DNA of 64,000 nucleotides from Wenjunlia tyrosinilytica (lineage in GTDB: Bacteria; Actinomycetota; Actinomycetes; Streptomycetales; Streptomycetaceae): assembly GCF_014646055.1 (NCBI RefSeq), contig NZ_BMMS01000008.1:124001-188000 (forward strand), written 5' to 3'. Of this stretch, positions 40,440 through 49,375 are shown piece after piece; position 1 is the first letter of the stretch; each line of letters opens with the position of its first letter. The position numbers were made by a program, and so were the translations under genes. Under the pieces are notes generated by a model, which was not told the DNA's origin, searched no databases, and saw only the letters and a list, made by a program, of their open reading frames with translations.

Positions 40440-41270
40440 ATGAGCATCTGGTGGACCCTCCACTTGCGGCGCGAGGCTGCGAGCGTCCCGCTCGCCCGAC
40501 GCATTCTGCTCGGCACGATGGACACCGCCGGAGTGGATCCCGACATCAGCTACGAACTCGGGGTCGCACTGTCCGAAGCGTGTGCCAACGCCGTCGAGCA
40601 CGCGGCCGACGCCCGCTCGGGATCCGACGACGGATACCTCGTCACGGCACGCATCGACGGGGACCGATGCCGCATCGAAGTGCGTGACTCCGGCCCCGGC
40701 TTCCCCGAGGGCAGCCCGCTCCTGACCTGCCCGGACACCTCGCCCGGCGCCGACCGAACCGGCGCCGGGCCCGGTGCTTCAGGGGTCAATGGCGCCCGTG
40801 CCACCGGCACCGGTGCGAACCGGGCGGGGCCGAGGAGCGCTGCCGGGCCCAACGGAACAATTCTCCCAAAAGCGAAAAATGTCGCGAACGGTGCCACGTC
40901 GAACGGTCTCGCGTCGGGTGCCGCCATGAACGGTGCCGCGTCGAACGGTGCCGCTGCTCCGGGCGCCGGAGCGAGTGGCGCGGGAGCGAGTGGCGGAGGA
41001 GCGAGCGGCGCGGGAGCGAGCGGTGCCGCGTCGAACGGCGTCAAAGGTGCCCCGCCGAACGCCCCGTCGAGCCCCACGTCCGTGATCCTCGAGCGGAGCC
41101 TGGAACTCGCGGACCTCGCCGCGCTCTCCGCCGAGAGCGGCCGCGGGATGTATCTGATCGAGGCGCTGGCCGACCACGTCCAGTTCCGCAACTACCCGCC
41201 GCGCGGCGCCGTCGTCAGCTTCGACAAGGCGCTGAAGTGGCGTGACGACGCCCTGCTGAAGGCCTCGTAG
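40440..41270 (+). CDS. Anti-sigma-type ATP-binding protein with a Gly/Ala/Ser/Asn insert
   Basis: A 276-residue GHKL ATPase of the anti-sigma-factor serine kinase group. The N box is ELGVALSEACANAVEHA (about 39-55), the G1 box EVRDSGPGFP (about 80-89), and the G2 box SGRGMYLIEALAD (about 233-245). Between G1 and G2, where relatives have about 15 residues, lie about 130 low-complexity residues (GASGAG and SNGA repeats). A short AT-rich stretch at about 40855-40885 inside this insert stands out against the GC-rich context. AGGAGG gives a strong start. The insert sits at the ATP lid, so kinase activity may be altered. It lies 3 kb from a SpoIIE-family phosphatase, a usual partner class. Confidence 0.85.
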   Translation: MSIWWTLHLRREAASVPLARRILLGTMDTAGVDPDISYELGVALSEACANAVEHAADARSGSDDGYLVTARIDGDRCRIEVRDSGPGFPEGSPLLTCPDTSPGADRTGAGPGASGVNGARATGTGANRAGPRSAAGPNGTILPKAKNVANGATSNGLASGAAMNGAASNGAAAPGAGASGAGASGGGASGAGASGAASNGVKGAPPNAPSSPTSVILERSLELADLAALSAESGRGMYLIEALADHVQFRNYPPRGAVVSFDKALKWRDDALLKAS

Positions 41271-41339: not shown

Positions 41340-42845
41340 TCAGACGTTGTCGCTGGGGCGCAGGCTCAGCACCCAGGCCTCGACCTCGTCGCCGCGGCGC
41401 GGCAGGTCGGCGGAGAGGTTCCGGTTGCCGTCGGCGGTCACCAGGATGTCGTCCTCGATCCGCACGCCGATGCCCCGGTACTCCTGCGGCACGGTCAGGT
41501 CGTCGGACTGGAAGTACAGGCCGGGCTCGACGGTGAGCACCATCCCGGGCTCGAGCGTCCCGTCTACGTACGTCTCGGTCCGCGCCACCGCGCAGTCGTG
41601 CACGTCCAGGCCCAGCATGTGGCCGGTGCCGTGGAGGGAGTAGCGGCGCTGCAGACCCAGCTCCAGCACACGCTCGACCGGCCCCTCGATGAGCCCCCAC
41701 TCGACGAGCTTCTCGGCGAGCACCCGCTGTGAGGCGTCGTGGAAGTCGCGGTATGCGGCGCCCGGCTTCACGGCCGCGATGCCCGCCTCCTGGGCCTCGT
41801 ACACCGCGTCGTAGACACGGCGCTGGACGTCGGTGAAGGTGCCGTCGACGGGCAGGGTGCGGGTGACGTCGGCGGTGTAGAGCGTCCTGGTCTCCACGCC
41901 GGCGTCGAGCAGGAGCAGGTCGCCGGGGTTGACCGGGCCGTCGTTGCGCACCCAGTGGAGGGTGCAGGCGTGGGCACCGGAGGCGGCGATGGTGCCGTAG
42001 CCGACGTCGTTGCCCTCGACGCGGGCGCGCAGGAAGAAGGTGCCCTCGATGTAGCGCTCGGAGGTGGACGTGGCCTTGTCGAGCACGGCCACGACGTCGT
42101 GGAAGCCGCGGACCGTGGAGTCCACGGCCTTCTGCAGCTCGCCGATCTCCCATTCGTCCTTGACCAGGCGAAGCTCGTCGAGAGAGGTCTTCAGCTCCCG
42201 GTCGCGCTCCTCGGTGTCCTCGGAAGGACCGGTGATCTCGGCCACGACGGCTTCGAGGGCCGCGTCGTGGCCGCGGACGATCCGGGTGGGCACGGCGGCG
42301 GCGGCCTTGATCTCGTCACCGGCCTTGCGCACGTCGCGGCAGGGCAGACCCAGCAGCCGCTCGGCCTCGGCGAGGCTGTGCCTGCGGCCGACCCAGAGCT
42401 CACCCTGGCCGTCGAGCCAGAACTCGCCGTTCTCCCGGTTGGACCTCGGCAGCAGGTAGGCGGTCGCCTCGTGGCCGCCGGACGCGGACGGCTCCATGAC
42501 GAGCACGGCGTCCTGGGTCTGGTCACCGGTGAGGTAGACGTAGTCGCAGGACGCGCGGAACGGGTACTCGGTGTCGTTGGACCGCGTCCTCAGATTGCCC
42601 GCCGGGACGATCAGACGCTCGCCCGGGAATCGGGCGGACAGCCTGGCCCGGCGTTCGGCCGCGAGCCCCGCCTGCTCGATGGGCTCGAGGTCGCGCAGCT
42701 CGGTATCGGCCCAGCCGGACTTCATCAGGTCGGCGAGCTGGGGCGAGACCTCGGGGTAGAGGCCGTTCTTCCGCCCCTTGATCGGCTGCTCCTGCTCGCC
42801 GGTGTCAAGGGTCTCGGACTGCTGGGCCGCGTGGTCCTCGGTCAC
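41340..42845 (-). CDS. pepP: Xaa-Pro aminopeptidase
   Basis: A 501-residue M24B metallopeptidase that removes N-terminal residues preceding proline. The N-terminal domain (about 60-220) is the AMP_N/creatinase_N type; the catalytic domain has the five metal ligands in LLLLDAGVE, YTADVTRT, HGTGHMLGLDVHD, TVEPGLYF and RIEDDIL. The GTG at 42845 has GAGGAGG upstream; the frame opens at 43163 but runs through repeats and has no start with a ribosome-binding site. The gene stands alone between a bidirectional terminator and the SpoIIE-family gene. Confidence 0.94.
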   Translation of the reverse strand: MTEDHAAQQSETLDTGEQEQPIKGRKNGLYPEVSPQLADLMKSGWADTELRDLEPIEQAGLAAERRARLSARFPGERLIVPAGNLRTRSNDTEYPFRASCDYVYLTGDQTQDAVLVMEPSASGGHEATAYLLPRSNRENGEFWLDGQGELWVGRRHSLAEAERLLGLPCRDVRKAGDEIKAAAAVPTRIVRGHDAALEAVVAEITGPSEDTEERDRELKTSLDELRLVKDEWEIGELQKAVDSTVRGFHDVVAVLDKATSTSERYIEGTFFLRARVEGNDVGYGTIAASGAHACTLHWVRNDGPVNPGDLLLLDAGVETRTLYTADVTRTLPVDGTFTDVQRRVYDAVYEAQEAGIAAVKPGAAYRDFHDASQRVLAEKLVEWGLIEGPVERVLELGLQRRYSLHGTGHMLGLDVHDCAVARTETYVDGTLEPGMVLTVEPGLYFQSDDLTVPQEYRGIGVRIEDDILVTADGNRNLSADLPRRGDEVEAWVLSLRPSDNV

Positions 42846-43050: not shown

Positions 43051-44493
43051 TCATTCGAAGCGGGCGGCCAGCAGGACGATGTCCTCGGTGCTCTCGGCGG
43101 CGTCGGCGTCATCCGGCAGGCAGGCGGACAGCAGGTGCTCGCAGAGAAGGTCGGGATCCTCACGTGTCTCGCGCGGCGCCCGGGCGGCCGCGGTGTGCAG
43201 CCTGGCGAACGACTGGTCCAGGGTGCCGCCGCCGCGGTGCAGCAGGCCGTCGGTGTAGAGAACGAGCGTCTCGCCCGGCTCCAGCGACATCTCCACGCTG
43301 GGTGCCTCCCAGCAGCTGAGCATCCCCAGCGGCGCGGACAGCGAGGTCTCCACGAACTCCACGCGCCGCTCCCCCACCAACAGCGGCGGGCAGTGCCCCG
43401 CTCCGGCGAGCACGAGACGGTGCTGGGCGGGCTCGGCGTAGGCGAACAGCGCAGTGGCCGACCGGGCCGGCTCCGTCAGTTGGAGCAGGAGCTCCAGATC
43501 GGACAGGACGGCGACGGGGTCCTCGCCCTCCATGACGGCGTAGGCACGCAACGAGGCCCGCAGCCGCCCCATGACGGCGGCGGCGCCCGGTCCTGTGCCG
43601 GTGACCGCGCCGACGGAGAGGCCGAGCGCGCCCTCGGGCAGGGCGAGCGCGTCGTACCAGTGGCCGCCGCCGGCGGTGCCGCTGCGGTGACGCATGCCCA
43701 GGCACACTCCCGGCACCCGTGGAAGCCGCGCGGGCAGCAACCCCTCGCGCAGCGTCCGCACATCGCGCTGTGCCCGGGCCAGGCGCAGGTGCTTGGCCAG
43801 GAGTTCGGCGGCGAACGAGCAGTACAGACCGGCGAGGTGCCGCTGCCGCTCGGTCGGCTCGGCGGGCTCGTCGTACATCCACACGACGGCGCCGAGTGTG
43901 CCCGTGGTCTCGGCGGTCAGGCGCAGCGCGTAGCTGGCGCCGATGCCGAGTTGGGAGGCGACCTCGCGGTGCCGCGGGGGCAGGGACAGGTCCGCGGCGA
44001 TGTCGGGGTGGAGCAGATCCGGGGGCGTCTCGCCGCTCGCGCCCTCCGTTGCGGGCGTCTGGCGGGAGGATGCGGGGATCTCGGCGTCCAGGGCCCGGCC
44101 GTATACGGCGGCCTCGCGGGGGACCGTCTCGAGGGTGCCGATGTCCGACCGTTCCAGCCCGAGGCCGACGGTGGTGTTGGGGCCCTGTCCGTCGGCGGGT
44201 TCGAGGACGGCCACGCCGCGCTGGGCTCCTACGAGGGCGGCCCCGGCCTGCAGCAGTTCGTGGAGGGTGGTGTCGAGGGAGTCGGTCCTGGCGAGGCGTT
44301 CGGTCAGCTCGTGCAGGGTGGTGAGATCGGACAACCAGGACGCCAGTCGGTCCTGCACGGCGGCGAGCTGCTCGACGGGCCGACCGGTGGTGTCCCGAGG
44401 GGCGGGGCGTTGCGCAGGAGGTTGTGCGGAAGCGTCAATTCCAGCCACTTCGGAGAAGTGCGCGCTGGTCATGGCACAGGTCTGTCTGTGCAT
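43051..44493 (-). CDS. SpoIIE-family PP2C phosphatase lacking two metal ligands
   Basis: A 480-residue protein with a GAF domain (about 60-215) and a PP2C/SpoIIE domain (about 245-478). Active relatives bind two Mn/Mg ions through Asp in GGDWYDA, GDVxGHG, TDGL and DDI. Here the first two positions are GGGHWYDA (about 275) and VGAVTGTG (about 290): Asp is replaced by His and Ala. The third (YTDGLL, about 411) and fourth (TEDIVLLAA) remain. Catalysis is therefore doubtful and a binding or sensing role is more likely. The ATG at 44493 has GGAG 5 nt upstream. Anti-sigma-type ATPase genes lie at 40440 and 48364; no anti-sigma antagonist is adjacent. Confidence 0.88.
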   Translation of the reverse strand: MHRQTCAMTSAHFSEVAGIDASAQPPAQRPAPRDTTGRPVEQLAAVQDRLASWLSDLTTLHELTERLARTDSLDTTLHELLQAGAALVGAQRGVAVLEPADGQGPNTTVGLGLERSDIGTLETVPREAAVYGRALDAEIPASSRQTPATEGASGETPPDLLHPDIAADLSLPPRHREVASQLGIGASYALRLTAETTGTLGAVVWMYDEPAEPTERQRHLAGLYCSFAAELLAKHLRLARAQRDVRTLREGLLPARLPRVPGVCLGMRHRSGTAGGGHWYDALALPEGALGLSVGAVTGTGPGAAAVMGRLRASLRAYAVMEGEDPVAVLSDLELLLQLTEPARSATALFAYAEPAQHRLVLAGAGHCPPLLVGERRVEFVETSLSAPLGMLSCWEAPSVEMSLEPGETLVLYTDGLLHRGGGTLDQSFARLHTAAARAPRETREDPDLLCEHLLSACLPDDADAAESTEDIVLLAARFE

Positions 44494-45118
44494 TTGGTCT
44501 CCGCGGAGCAAATATCCCTCTTGGGGGCATTTGTGGGGTTATTGGGAACCTGGCCGTATCGGTCTGTTTCCTGCAATAGCATCGCAAACCCCCATGTTGT
44601 GCTGCTCCGCTATCAACCTCTCCACTTGTACACGCACCCACTCTGGGATGTCCAGGATTGCCCAGGTCGCGGGGCTGGTGTCGAGGGCGATCATGGTTGG
44701 CTGAAAAGCCACTCGATTGCGTCAATTCTGTGCAGTCCAGACCTTTTCGACTACGCGTCATATCGATGGCCACGGGTACGTACGATGGGAGGGCAGCGGA
44801 GGGGAAGCCGCAGCACAAGCCCGTCATCCATTGGGCGGAACTGGTAGGGCCGCCCGTGCGTCTAAACAGACAATGCGCCATGCTCGACCGGGCGGCCACA
44901 ATAGACAGGCAACCCCGTGTCATCCCCCGAGTGGCAGGGTGTGAAACACCCAGGGGGCTACAGCCGCCAATCGCCACCTGTGCGCCACCCCGCGCCATGT
45001 TCCGAGCCACGTGCGGAGCGTGATGCGCTGCCTGGTACCTGGCGGTGCGGCGGTACGTGGCGTCGTTGGTGTTACGTGCGGATGATCCTTGAGCGCTAGC
45101 GGAAAGGAACGAGCGCAC
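44494..45118. other. Intergenic region, no confident gene
   Basis: The 625 bp hold the promoters of the SpoIIE-family gene (minus) and the primase-like gene (plus) and are AT-richer than the neighbours near 44500-44780. An 85-codon frame from the ATG at 44766 to 45023 has no ribosome-binding site, weak codon bias and no recognisable motif, so I do not call it. A small perfect hairpin, GGGTGT-gaa-ACACCC, lies near 44937. Confidence 0.4.
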
Positions 45119-45865
45119 ATGCGTGAGATCCTCGTAAGGCGACGCAGGACCAGGTCGGCGCTGCTCGGCGCCGCGCTGACCTACGCCGAGCAGTGGCAGT
45201 GGCCCGTGGTGCCGGGGGCGGGTTTGCAGACCCGCCAGGCGTGGCAGAGCCGAGGGGCCCGTGGGTCGATCCGCTCGTTCCTCGTCTCCTGCGCCCGCGG
45301 GAGCCGCAGGAGCCGGGAGAGCCCACCGCCGGTTCCACGGAGCGAGGAGCTCTGCTCCTGCCCACGCCCCGACTGCGTGGTGCCGGGCGCGCATCCGCAG
45401 GACCCCGGACTGCTCGCCGCCACATGCGACCCGCGCATGGTCCGCTGGTGGTGGACCAACCGCCCCGACGCGCCCATCGTCCTCGCCACCGGTACGAAGG
45501 TGGCCGCCGTGAGCCTGCCCGCGCCGGCCGGGGCACGGGCGCTGGCCGCGTTCGACCGGGTGGGCGTTCCGCTCGGCCCGGTGGTGGCCTCGCCGACACG
45601 CTTCATGCTGCTCGTGCAGCCCTACTCACTCGATGAGTTGGGCGAACTGCTCGATCAGCAGGACTGGGTGCCGACTTCATTGCGCTACCACGGCAGCGGC
45701 GGCTACATCGTGCTGCCGCCGTCGGAGACCGCGGGCGGGAATCTGCGCTGGGAACGGCCTCCGGCCGCCAACGGGGTGCCCTGGCTGCCGACGATCGAGT
45801 CGGTGGTCACCACATTGGTGGCCGCGAGCGCGAGTGAGCCGGACGGCAGCCGCCTGGCGTTCTGA
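45119..45865 (+). CDS. Prim-Pol-like protein lacking the catalytic acidic motif
   Basis: A 248-residue protein of the Streptomyces group annotated as bifunctional DNA primase/polymerase. Family marks are YAEQWQWPVVPG, CSCPRPDCVVPGAHP, WWWTNRPDAPIVLATG and the closing YIVLPPSE. True Prim-Pol domains have a DxD metal site right after the ATG loop; here that stretch reads TKVAAVSLPAPAGA with no acidic residue, so polymerase activity is unlikely. About 25 extra basic/Ser residues interrupt the N-terminal third. The ATG at 45119 has GGAAAGGA 9-16 nt upstream. No replication genes are adjacent. A regulatory or structural role is possible but unproven. Confidence 0.75.
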   Translation: MREILVRRRRTRSALLGAALTYAEQWQWPVVPGAGLQTRQAWQSRGARGSIRSFLVSCARGSRRSRESPPPVPRSEELCSCPRPDCVVPGAHPQDPGLLAATCDPRMVRWWWTNRPDAPIVLATGTKVAAVSLPAPAGARALAAFDRVGVPLGPVVASPTRFMLLVQPYSLDELGELLDQQDWVPTSLRYHGSGGYIVLPPSETAGGNLRWERPPAANGVPWLPTIESVVTTLVAASASEPDGSRLAF

Positions 45866-48363: not shown

Positions 48364-49173
48364 TCAGGCCAGGTCGTCGAAGGGATCGTCGAAGTCACGG
48401 TCGAACCCGACGGTCTCCCCCATGGCCGGAACGGTTACCGAGGGTACTGCCACCGCACCCGGGAAGCCGTGCCTGCGGGCGTGCCGGGCGCGCACCGGAA
48501 GCACCGCCCACACCGTCACCTCGCCGGGCGCGTCTCGGACCCCCCATTTCAGCGCCAGCTGTCCGACGATGCCGAGACCGCGCCCGCCCTTGGCCGTCAG
48601 CGACGGGCTCGAGGGCATCGGACGCGTGGGTCCGCCGCCGTCGGTCACCTCGAGGGTGAGCAGTCCGTCGTCGCCGACCATCCAGCCGCAGCGGATACCG
48701 CCCTCGGCGGCGTCCTCGCTGCGGGACTCCTCGTTCCTCGGCTCCCCGTTGCTCCCCCGCTCCCCGTTGCTCCCCCGCTCGCCGTGCCCCGGCTCTCCCT
48801 GCCTTGACTCTCCCTGCCTTGGCTCGCCGTGGCCCGGCTCCCTGTGCCCCGGCTCCCTGTGCCCCGGCTCGCTGTGCCCCGGCTCGCTGTGCCGCGGCTC
48901 GCTGTGCCGCGGCTCTCCGTTGAGCCGACGCCGGTCCTGCCGGACGTGGTGCCCATTGACGGCGCACGGGCCGTCCAGCGGCCGGGCATGCCGGCACGAG
49001 TTGCTGAGAAGCTCGGACAGGATGAGCACCGCGTCATCGACAACGGCATCCGGAGCGCCGCATTCGGTCAACTCCTCGCGCAGCCTGCGCCGCGCCGTGC
49101 CAACACCCGCCGGACCATGGGGAAGGGCCATGGTCGAGGTCGTCGGCACCTCCTGCGCCACCACGAACGCCAC
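48364..49173 (-). CDS. ATP-binding (HATPase_c_2) protein with pentapeptide-repeat insert
   Basis: A 269-residue GHKL ATPase of the SpoIIAB-like regulator class common in Streptomyces. The N box is LILSELLSNSCRHA, the G1-like box LEVTDGGGPTRP and the G2 box KGGRGLGIVGQLA. Between N box and G1 lie about 60 residues of repeats of the type EPGHS/R and GERGSN, encoded by 15-bp tandem DNA repeats. Such proteins usually inhibit sigma factors or kinase cascades; the target is unknown. The GTG at 49173 has AAGGAGG 8 nt upstream; the GTG at 49191 would lie upstream of that site. Confidence 0.82.
   Translation of the reverse strand: MAFVVAQEVPTTSTMALPHGPAGVGTARRRLREELTECGAPDAVVDDAVLILSELLSNSCRHARPLDGPCAVNGHHVRQDRRRLNGEPRHSEPRHSEPGHSEPGHREPGHREPGHGEPRQGESRQGEPGHGERGSNGERGSNGEPRNEESRSEDAAEGGIRCGWMVGDDGLLTLEVTDGGGPTRPMPSSPSLTAKGGRGLGIVGQLALKWGVRDAPGEVTVWAVLPVRARHARRHGFPGAVAVPSVTVPAMGETVGFDRDFDDPFDDLA
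48740..48915. repeat. 15-bp tandem repeats inside the ATPase gene
   Basis: About ten head-to-tail units related to CCGGCTCCCTGTGCC (plus-strand reading) in several sub-variants, preceded by two copies of a related CCCCGTTGCTCCCCCGCT-type unit. Unit length is a multiple of three, so copy number can change without frameshift. Confidence 0.75.
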
Positions 49174-49375
49174 CCCCGAGACCTCCTTCACCCCACGCCA
49201 CGGAGTGAATGCCCCGCCGCCACGTGGCGGAAACTGCCCTGTCCGGAACTCTTGGATCAGACCAGAGGTCGAACACGTTCCGAACGCGCCCGCGCACTAC
49301 CTGTAAGGACTGGCCGCTTCCGCCAGGCTGTTCACGGCCCGTATCGCCCGTTCGGGCAAGGGCCGGCGTCCCGCG

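Follow-up and report, generated by a model that had tools for sequence, protein, structure and literature searches.

The closest described systems are the canonical SpoIIE/RsbU-type PPM phosphatases, e.g., SpoIIE and RsbU of B. subtilis and Rv1364c of M. tuberculosis. Asp628, Asp746, and Asp795 bind the ion in a SpoIIE crystal in which Mn occupancy is high, and possible ligands of a second Mn are Asp628, Gly629, and Asp610 (PMC3517971; here and below, statements cited by PMC number refer to the accessible parts of the papers). Asp628 and Gly629 were also predicted as the M2 metal ligands of SpoIIE (PMC5468089). Since Asp628 is among the ligands of both Mn sites, its place, referred to below as position 2 of the four metal-ligand positions, is that of the ligand common to the two sites. 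What is reported for the D628A substitution of SpoIIE is an effect on dimerisation, not a phosphatase figure (PMC5468089). Recognition of STAS substrates by SpoIIE and RsbU involves the switch-loop, the flap, and the alpha3/4 loop, elements that differ from one family member to another (PMC11418112).

Pseudo-PP2C proteins are already known, and the streptomycete family described here adds to them. RssB, a two-component response regulator by its molecule name, has a switch-regulated PP2C domain whose main role does not require phosphatase activity, and it provides a bacterial precedent for a PP2C-like protein that acts by binding through the switch (PMC5468089). RssB delivers sigma-S to ClpXP, a role not ascribed here to the streptomycete protein. 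The animal pseudo-PPMs TAB1 and PHLPP2 have lost PP2C activity and retained the fold; the loss of PHLPP2 activity at the base of animals is a precedent for one ancient loss (PMC12002173). These two proteins are eukaryotic and differ from the streptomycete family in their partners and in the residues lost. No Streptomyces SpoIIE pseudophosphatase was described in the literature that we searched, the coverage of which stopped short of older subscription surveys of Streptomyces phosphatases (including Zhang and Shi, 2004). In the accessible part of a survey of PP2C proteins in bacteria published in 2025, the word "inactive" is absent, and "pseudo", among the passages listed (12 of 16), belongs to names such as Pseudomonadota (PMC12088040). 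Two other SpoIIE genes have been discussed in the context of Streptomyces synteny, one near spoIIIE/rimO and the other near pirA (PMC13118837).

The window, i.e., the whole stretch of 64,000 nucleotides from Wenjunlia tyrosinilytica that was analysed, contains at 43051–44493 of the reverse strand an open reading frame of 480 amino acids, which begins with ATG and runs uninterrupted to its stop codon in the window translation. The starts of orthologues coincide with a second ATG at 44472 (MTSAHFSEVAGID), and the annotated start at 44493 is probably seven codons too early. The PF07228 (SpoIIE) profile matches residues 286–479 with 135.7 bits (cut-off 25), which places the product in the SpoIIE/PPM family; an NCBIfam search with the window protein at E 0.001 assigned no family. 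The AlphaFold2 model, based on an 80-sequence alignment (pLDDT 89.9, pTM 0.81), consists of a helix at residues 39–68 leading into a GAF-like domain, a second helix at residues 215–252, and a PP2C domain extending to the C-terminus. On the reverse strand, these parts correspond to the GAF-fold domain (residues 39–214; 43852–44379), the long linker helix (43738–43851), and the PP2C/SpoIIE-fold domain (residues 253–480; 43054–43737). The last of these includes the switch helices with the switch-loop (residues 301–346; 43456–43593) and the flap (residues 381–398; 43300–43353).

Both predicted domains have clear structural relatives. Residues 30–256, modelled separately (pLDDT 91.3), match PDE5A and bacterial GAF domains in the PDB with Z of 13.7–15.7 among the matches listed, and Foldseek agrees; the N-terminal domain thus resembles GAF folds, not the receiver domain of RssB. 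The best-ranked solved relative of the PP2C part is the RsbU domain of Rv1364c (Z 29.4, rmsd 2.0 over 219 residues, 32% identity). SpoIIE 5ucg follows with Z 25.0 (rmsd 2.6, 214 residues), and other matches include RssB (Z about 23), RsbX (22.1), and TAB1 (18.6); among the matches listed, 50 PP2C-type entries have Z of 17.7–29.4. An earlier note on this DNA, made from the sequence, had described an intact, in-frame, non-canonical SpoIIE-family protein with a GAF sensor and had proposed structure prediction as a check. The open frame, the profile score, and the motif residues considered below bear out the description, and the model recovers both folds, including the GAF domain, although the Pfam GAF match in the N-terminal part (17.7 bits) is under the cut-off of 22.4.

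The protein has the PP2C fold, the switch helices, the flap, and the aspartates at positions 3 and 4 in common with canonical SpoIIE/RsbU phosphatases, and departs from them at positions 1 and 2. Its motifs at positions 1 to 4 read GGGHWYDA, VGAVTGTG, YTDGL, and STEDIV. By motif order, these positions correspond to SpoIIE Asp610, Asp628, Asp746, and Asp795, the numbering being derived from this order, the Rv1364c and RssB alignments, and the numbering used in the papers rather than from residue-by-residue superposition. Position 1 is occupied by His278 (codon CAC, 43660–43662, reverse strand) and position 2 by Ala296 (43606–43608, reverse strand), and Asp415 (43249–43251) and Asp471 (43081–43083), both on the same strand, retain positions 3 and 4 according to the motifs and the orthologue alignment. 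The claim of the earlier note that two of four metal-binding aspartates are gone and the other two present is therefore correct.

A misaligned motif was considered and rejected. The sequence alignment with Rv1364c puts GGDWFDA, VGDVVGHG, and YTDGL opposite the window motifs and confirms the register; 30 of 30 aligned SpoIIE domains from the same genome (L001–L030) carry the first two aspartates; and the RssB profile alignment is in agreement. In that alignment, P. aeruginosa RssB itself, unlike the window protein, retains the first three aspartates. In a profile search of solved structures, the match to SpoIIE (5mqh) was no better than E 0.5.

The genome encodes 43 SpoIIE domains, three of which, the window protein among them, are without Asp at position 2. 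The other two are L223 (G000:C17:36184-36777), which has Gly at this position (VALAIGGVVGHG) and intact Asp 3 and 4, and the divergent L228 (G000:C10:26997-27569), which has Asn (VVNGMGEG). For 12 of the 43 domains, L223 included, position 1 lies beyond the retrieved stretch. Asn at position 3 was observed in L009 (G000:C5:238939-239517) and L233 (G000:C1:272883-273263).

Orthologues were collected as best hits only. The best 80 of 389 confirmed loci were taken from named genomes, mostly of Streptomyces, whose names indicate that the taxonomic family is that of the streptomycetes. Searches at the level of the genus, taxonomic family, and order to which the window belongs contributed at most the best 30 loci each. 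To these were added 80 further matches from the taxonomic family, the loci from G074 and G001, and two matches of 38–39% identity (the second hit in G019, and G028). Counts leave out the window locus itself (L111), two incomplete loci (L218, L237), one with the frame broken at motif 1 (L221), and L176, for which tblastn gave GGGDWYDA and VGSVTGSG; sequences with identical C-terminal 300 residues contributed a single count, and L235, L236, L273, and L274 were treated separately, as canonical outgroups.

All 198 usable best-hit orthologues carry Asp at position 1, the window protein being the sole exception among 199 sequences. The state of position 2 is Ser in 153, Gly in 41, Ala in 3, and Asp in a single orthologue, L219 from genome G015. 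Position 3 holds Asp (160), Glu (36), Gly (1), or Ala (1), and position 4 holds Asp (195), Glu (2), or Pro (1). The four aspartates occur together in none of the 199 sequences, as L219 is without Asp at position 4. For comparison, three groups of canonical best hits were drawn from the window's taxonomic family, each composed of the best 30 loci of a search minus the query's own locus. All four positions are Asp in 29/29 sequences of each group, one gap excepted; one of the groups, L024 (36–55% identity), is unlikely to consist of strict orthologues. Together with the rarity of the change among the SpoIIE domains of the genome, this indicates that the departure of the window protein goes beyond chance.

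The family is widespread within its taxonomic family, where 114 of 121 genomes have a match at E <= 1e-60 (including a canonical paralogue in G028 and L219 in G015). The seven genomes without a match at this threshold belong to genera g2, g5, and g10. In 15 genomes sampled from other families of the order, there were two matches at E <= 1e-40, both canonical (L273, L274).

In a FastTree tree built from the 198 orthologues, the window protein, and nine canonical outgroups, the orthologues and the window protein form one clade (support 1.0), and L219 is sister to the other 198 tips, including the window (support 1.0). Since the only carrier of Asp at position 2 is sister to all others, a single loss on the stem explains the distribution most simply, and the tree fits the view that Asp2 was lost once, anciently, before the family diversified. 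A Fitch count gives 11 changes at this position, including the later exchanges of Ser, Gly, and Ala. L219, as an early branch, keeps the first three aspartates and has lost the fourth; pepP lies about 4 kb off on the same strand and is not adjacent to it. Glu at position 3 is confined to one clade of 42 tips (36 Glu, 6 Asp; support 0.995).

The tree has a single change at position 1, in the window lineage. Of the 198 orthologues, 197, including the sister species, encode this residue by GAC and one by GAT. The Asp-to-His change (GAC to CAC) thus appears to be private to the window strain, on top of the ancestral loss of Asp2, and is known from one assembly. That His278 reflects an error of sequencing or assembly, with the ordinary Asp present in the actual strain, is quite unlikely: the codon is a single base away from that of nearly all orthologues, while the assembly is rated 99.95% complete, and the near-invariant columns at residues 266 and 307 also differ, indicating that the lineage does vary in such columns; neither of the latter facts bears directly on the His278 base.

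This history divides what the earlier note had treated as a unit. Its suggestion that selection has kept both changes as a set is not upheld, the loss of Asp2 being ancestral and His278 private. It had also named orthologues retaining both aspartates as evidence of a local mutation, and here the outcome is split: Asp2 is gone in 197 of 198 orthologues and Asp1 is retained in every one of them. A local mutation is accordingly rejected as the whole explanation and is accepted for Asp1.

The only other sampled member of the window's genus (L112/L238, relative G001) retains Asp1 and has Gly at position 3; it also carries an 11-residue insertion ahead of Asp 4. At least one of positions 1, 3, and 4 lacks an acidic residue in 2/2 genus members versus 1/196 others (L163; L219 left out), with a chance figure of 1.5e-4 for a comparison that was chosen after the data were seen. 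The loss of one more ligand in both genus members (Asp1 to His in the window, Asp3 to Gly in L112) is what would be expected if the gene were decaying and the missing aspartates were early damage. We regard decay as highly improbable, and for the family it is contradicted by several lines of evidence. The frame is intact and synteny is near-universal. Comparison of the window gene with L112 gave dN 0.210 and dS 0.666 by NG86 (0.246 and 0.729 by LWL85) for the whole gene, and dN 0.137 and dS 0.672 by NG86 for the PP2C domain, i.e., dN/dS of 0.20–0.34 versus the sister species, indicative of purifying selection. Of 101 columns with at least 97% conservation, 98 are unchanged in the window protein, which departs at residues 266, 278, and 307. 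The same observations rule out a pseudogene and, together with the orthologues, substantiate the view of the earlier note that the protein is maintained by selection.

Neighbouring genes were counted only in loci whose retrieved stretch was long enough. Downstream lies the aminopeptidase P gene pepP (41340–42845, reverse strand; AMP_N and M24 domains, GTG start), which shares the strand of the SpoIIE-family gene in 151 of 152 such loci, and a divergent Prim-Pol domain gene (45089–45865, forward strand) is present in 153 of 154. Two candidate partners occur in the vicinity. An RsbW-like HATPase gene past pepP (40440–41270, forward strand) has a homologue in 85 of 150 loci, and a second HATPase_c_2 gene (48364–49191, reverse strand), upstream of a DUF5926 gene, has one in 18 of 18; the DUF5926 gene is present in 68 of 68. 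Both HATPase_c_2 translations contain long low-complexity stretches, apparently within the ATPase region, which are Gly/Ala/Ser/Asn-rich in the product of 40440–41270 and consist of a GEPGHREPGH-like repeat in that of 48364–49191.

None of the neighbour genes tested encodes a canonical SpoIIE protein. This speaks against the possibility that the protein is a pseudo-subunit that pairs with and controls a canonical SpoIIE protein, or supplies the missing part of a common site in a mixed dimer. Such pairing has a structural model in the domain-swapped dimer of SpoIIE crystals, where Asp628 is supplied by the partner chain (PMC3517971), and the 42 other SpoIIE domains of the genome offer potential partners; the swap, on the other hand, may be a crystal effect, and we give this explanation little credence.

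Without the ligand common to both sites, the protein would be unable to assemble the two-metal site of active enzymes and would be a binding device, and we infer that normal two-metal hydrolysis is impossible for the family. The earlier description of the protein as probably non-catalytic is thereby supported by the orthologues and the predicted fold, as an argument from residue states. An unlikely, though somewhat more serious, alternative is that the family retains phosphatase activity at a rearranged or one-metal site, which would be built from Asp1, Asp3 or Glu, Asp4, and in one clade Asp300 and would permit slow or altered hydrolysis. Position 1 is Asp in 198/198 orthologues, position 4 in 195/198, and position 3 is Asp or Glu in 196/198, and the near-invariance of Asp1 and Asp4, which is not required of a pure binding protein, also counts against a binding-only role; a metal or another ligand may still be bound in the pocket. 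In addition, Asp occurs at residue 300 in 21 of the 36 Glu3 sequences and in 0/161 others, possibly a rebuilt acidic site in one clade, and the Mn-soaked SpoIIE crystal contains a single Mn (PMC3517971). Against retained catalysis stands the fact that the absent residue is the very one common to both metal sites. Moreover, residue 300 is Gly in the other 15 of the 36 Glu3 sequences, and PHLPP2 and TAB1, reported to retain one bound metal, are described as inactive (PMC12002173).

The distribution of conservation within the PP2C domain points to binding. Mean column entropies were calculated for 197 sequences of the pseudophosphatase family (L219 left out), the remaining 160 residues of the domain serving as the rest. 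They are lowest in the flap (0.23), followed by alpha2 (0.28), the switch-loop (0.29), and alpha1 (0.38), compared with 1.00 for the rest. The switch-loop and the flap are thus nearly frozen here, in contrast to their variability across the canonical SpoIIE/RsbU family. Three samples of 29 sequences from the pseudophosphatase family gave similar values (alpha1 0.29–0.40, alpha2 0.17–0.31, switch-loop 0.15–0.35, flap 0.23–0.27, rest 0.85–0.98). In the canonical controls of the same size, the respective values for alpha1, alpha2, switch-loop, flap, and rest are 0.04, 0.32, 0.36, 0.64, and 0.50 (L014); 0.67, 1.38, 1.38, 0.58, and 1.10 (L011); and 0.88, 1.79, 2.02, 1.69, and 1.25 (L024). None of the three has all four elements under the rest. 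Part of the pattern is nevertheless shared, alpha1 being under the rest in all three controls, alpha2 and the switch-loop in L014, and the flap in L011. This overlap weighs against the binding reading, as does the third docking element, the alpha3/4 loop, which is variable in the pseudophosphatase family (1.34), equal to the mean of the GAF region (1.34).

A PPM fold kept under selection after the loss of metal-ligand residues is what characterizes a pseudo-PPM, and this combination is found here. With reasonable rather than strong confidence, we favour the reading that the family is a streptomycete-wide pseudophosphatase serving as a GAF-gated binding protein in sigma-factor partner-switching. 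Its ancestor would have been a GAF-SpoIIE phosphatase in which the central metal-ligand Asp, equivalent to SpoIIE Asp628, was lost once, the fold and the substrate-docking surface being retained. The GAF domain, via the linker helix and the switch, would control binding of a partner in the sigma-factor partner-switching network, and this partner would be sequestered, shielded, or scaffolded by the pseudophosphatase. STAS anti-anti-sigma factors and RsbW-like HATPases, for instance the products of the genes at 40440 and 48364, are the most likely candidates, although the presence of a homologue in just over half of the loci counts against the 40440-type HATPase. In the window strain, the private Asp-to-His change would remove another ligand from a site already off its usual chemistry, and His278 itself could hold a metal.

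The pocket has changed in lineage-specific ways, with Glu3 and Asp300 in part of one clade, His1 in the window, and Gly3 in the sister species. This allows for a broader and more speculative scenario, doubtful as a whole, in which a phosphatase turned into a GAF-gated binding switch family-wide: the chemistry was lost once, the docking surface was frozen, and the metal pocket was later rebuilt lineage by lineage, perhaps holding another metal or ligand that reports the cell state to the sigma-factor network.

SpoIIE domains are usually read as phosphatases, and one of them, present in most sampled genomes of the taxonomic family in fixed synteny, appears not to be. If this is true, knock-outs, phospho-proteomics, and models of the Streptomyces sigma-factor network should treat it as a binding protein. 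With a basal loss, an early branch that retains the residue (L219), and later changes of the pocket, the clade offers a test of the transition from enzyme to pseudoenzyme in bacteria.
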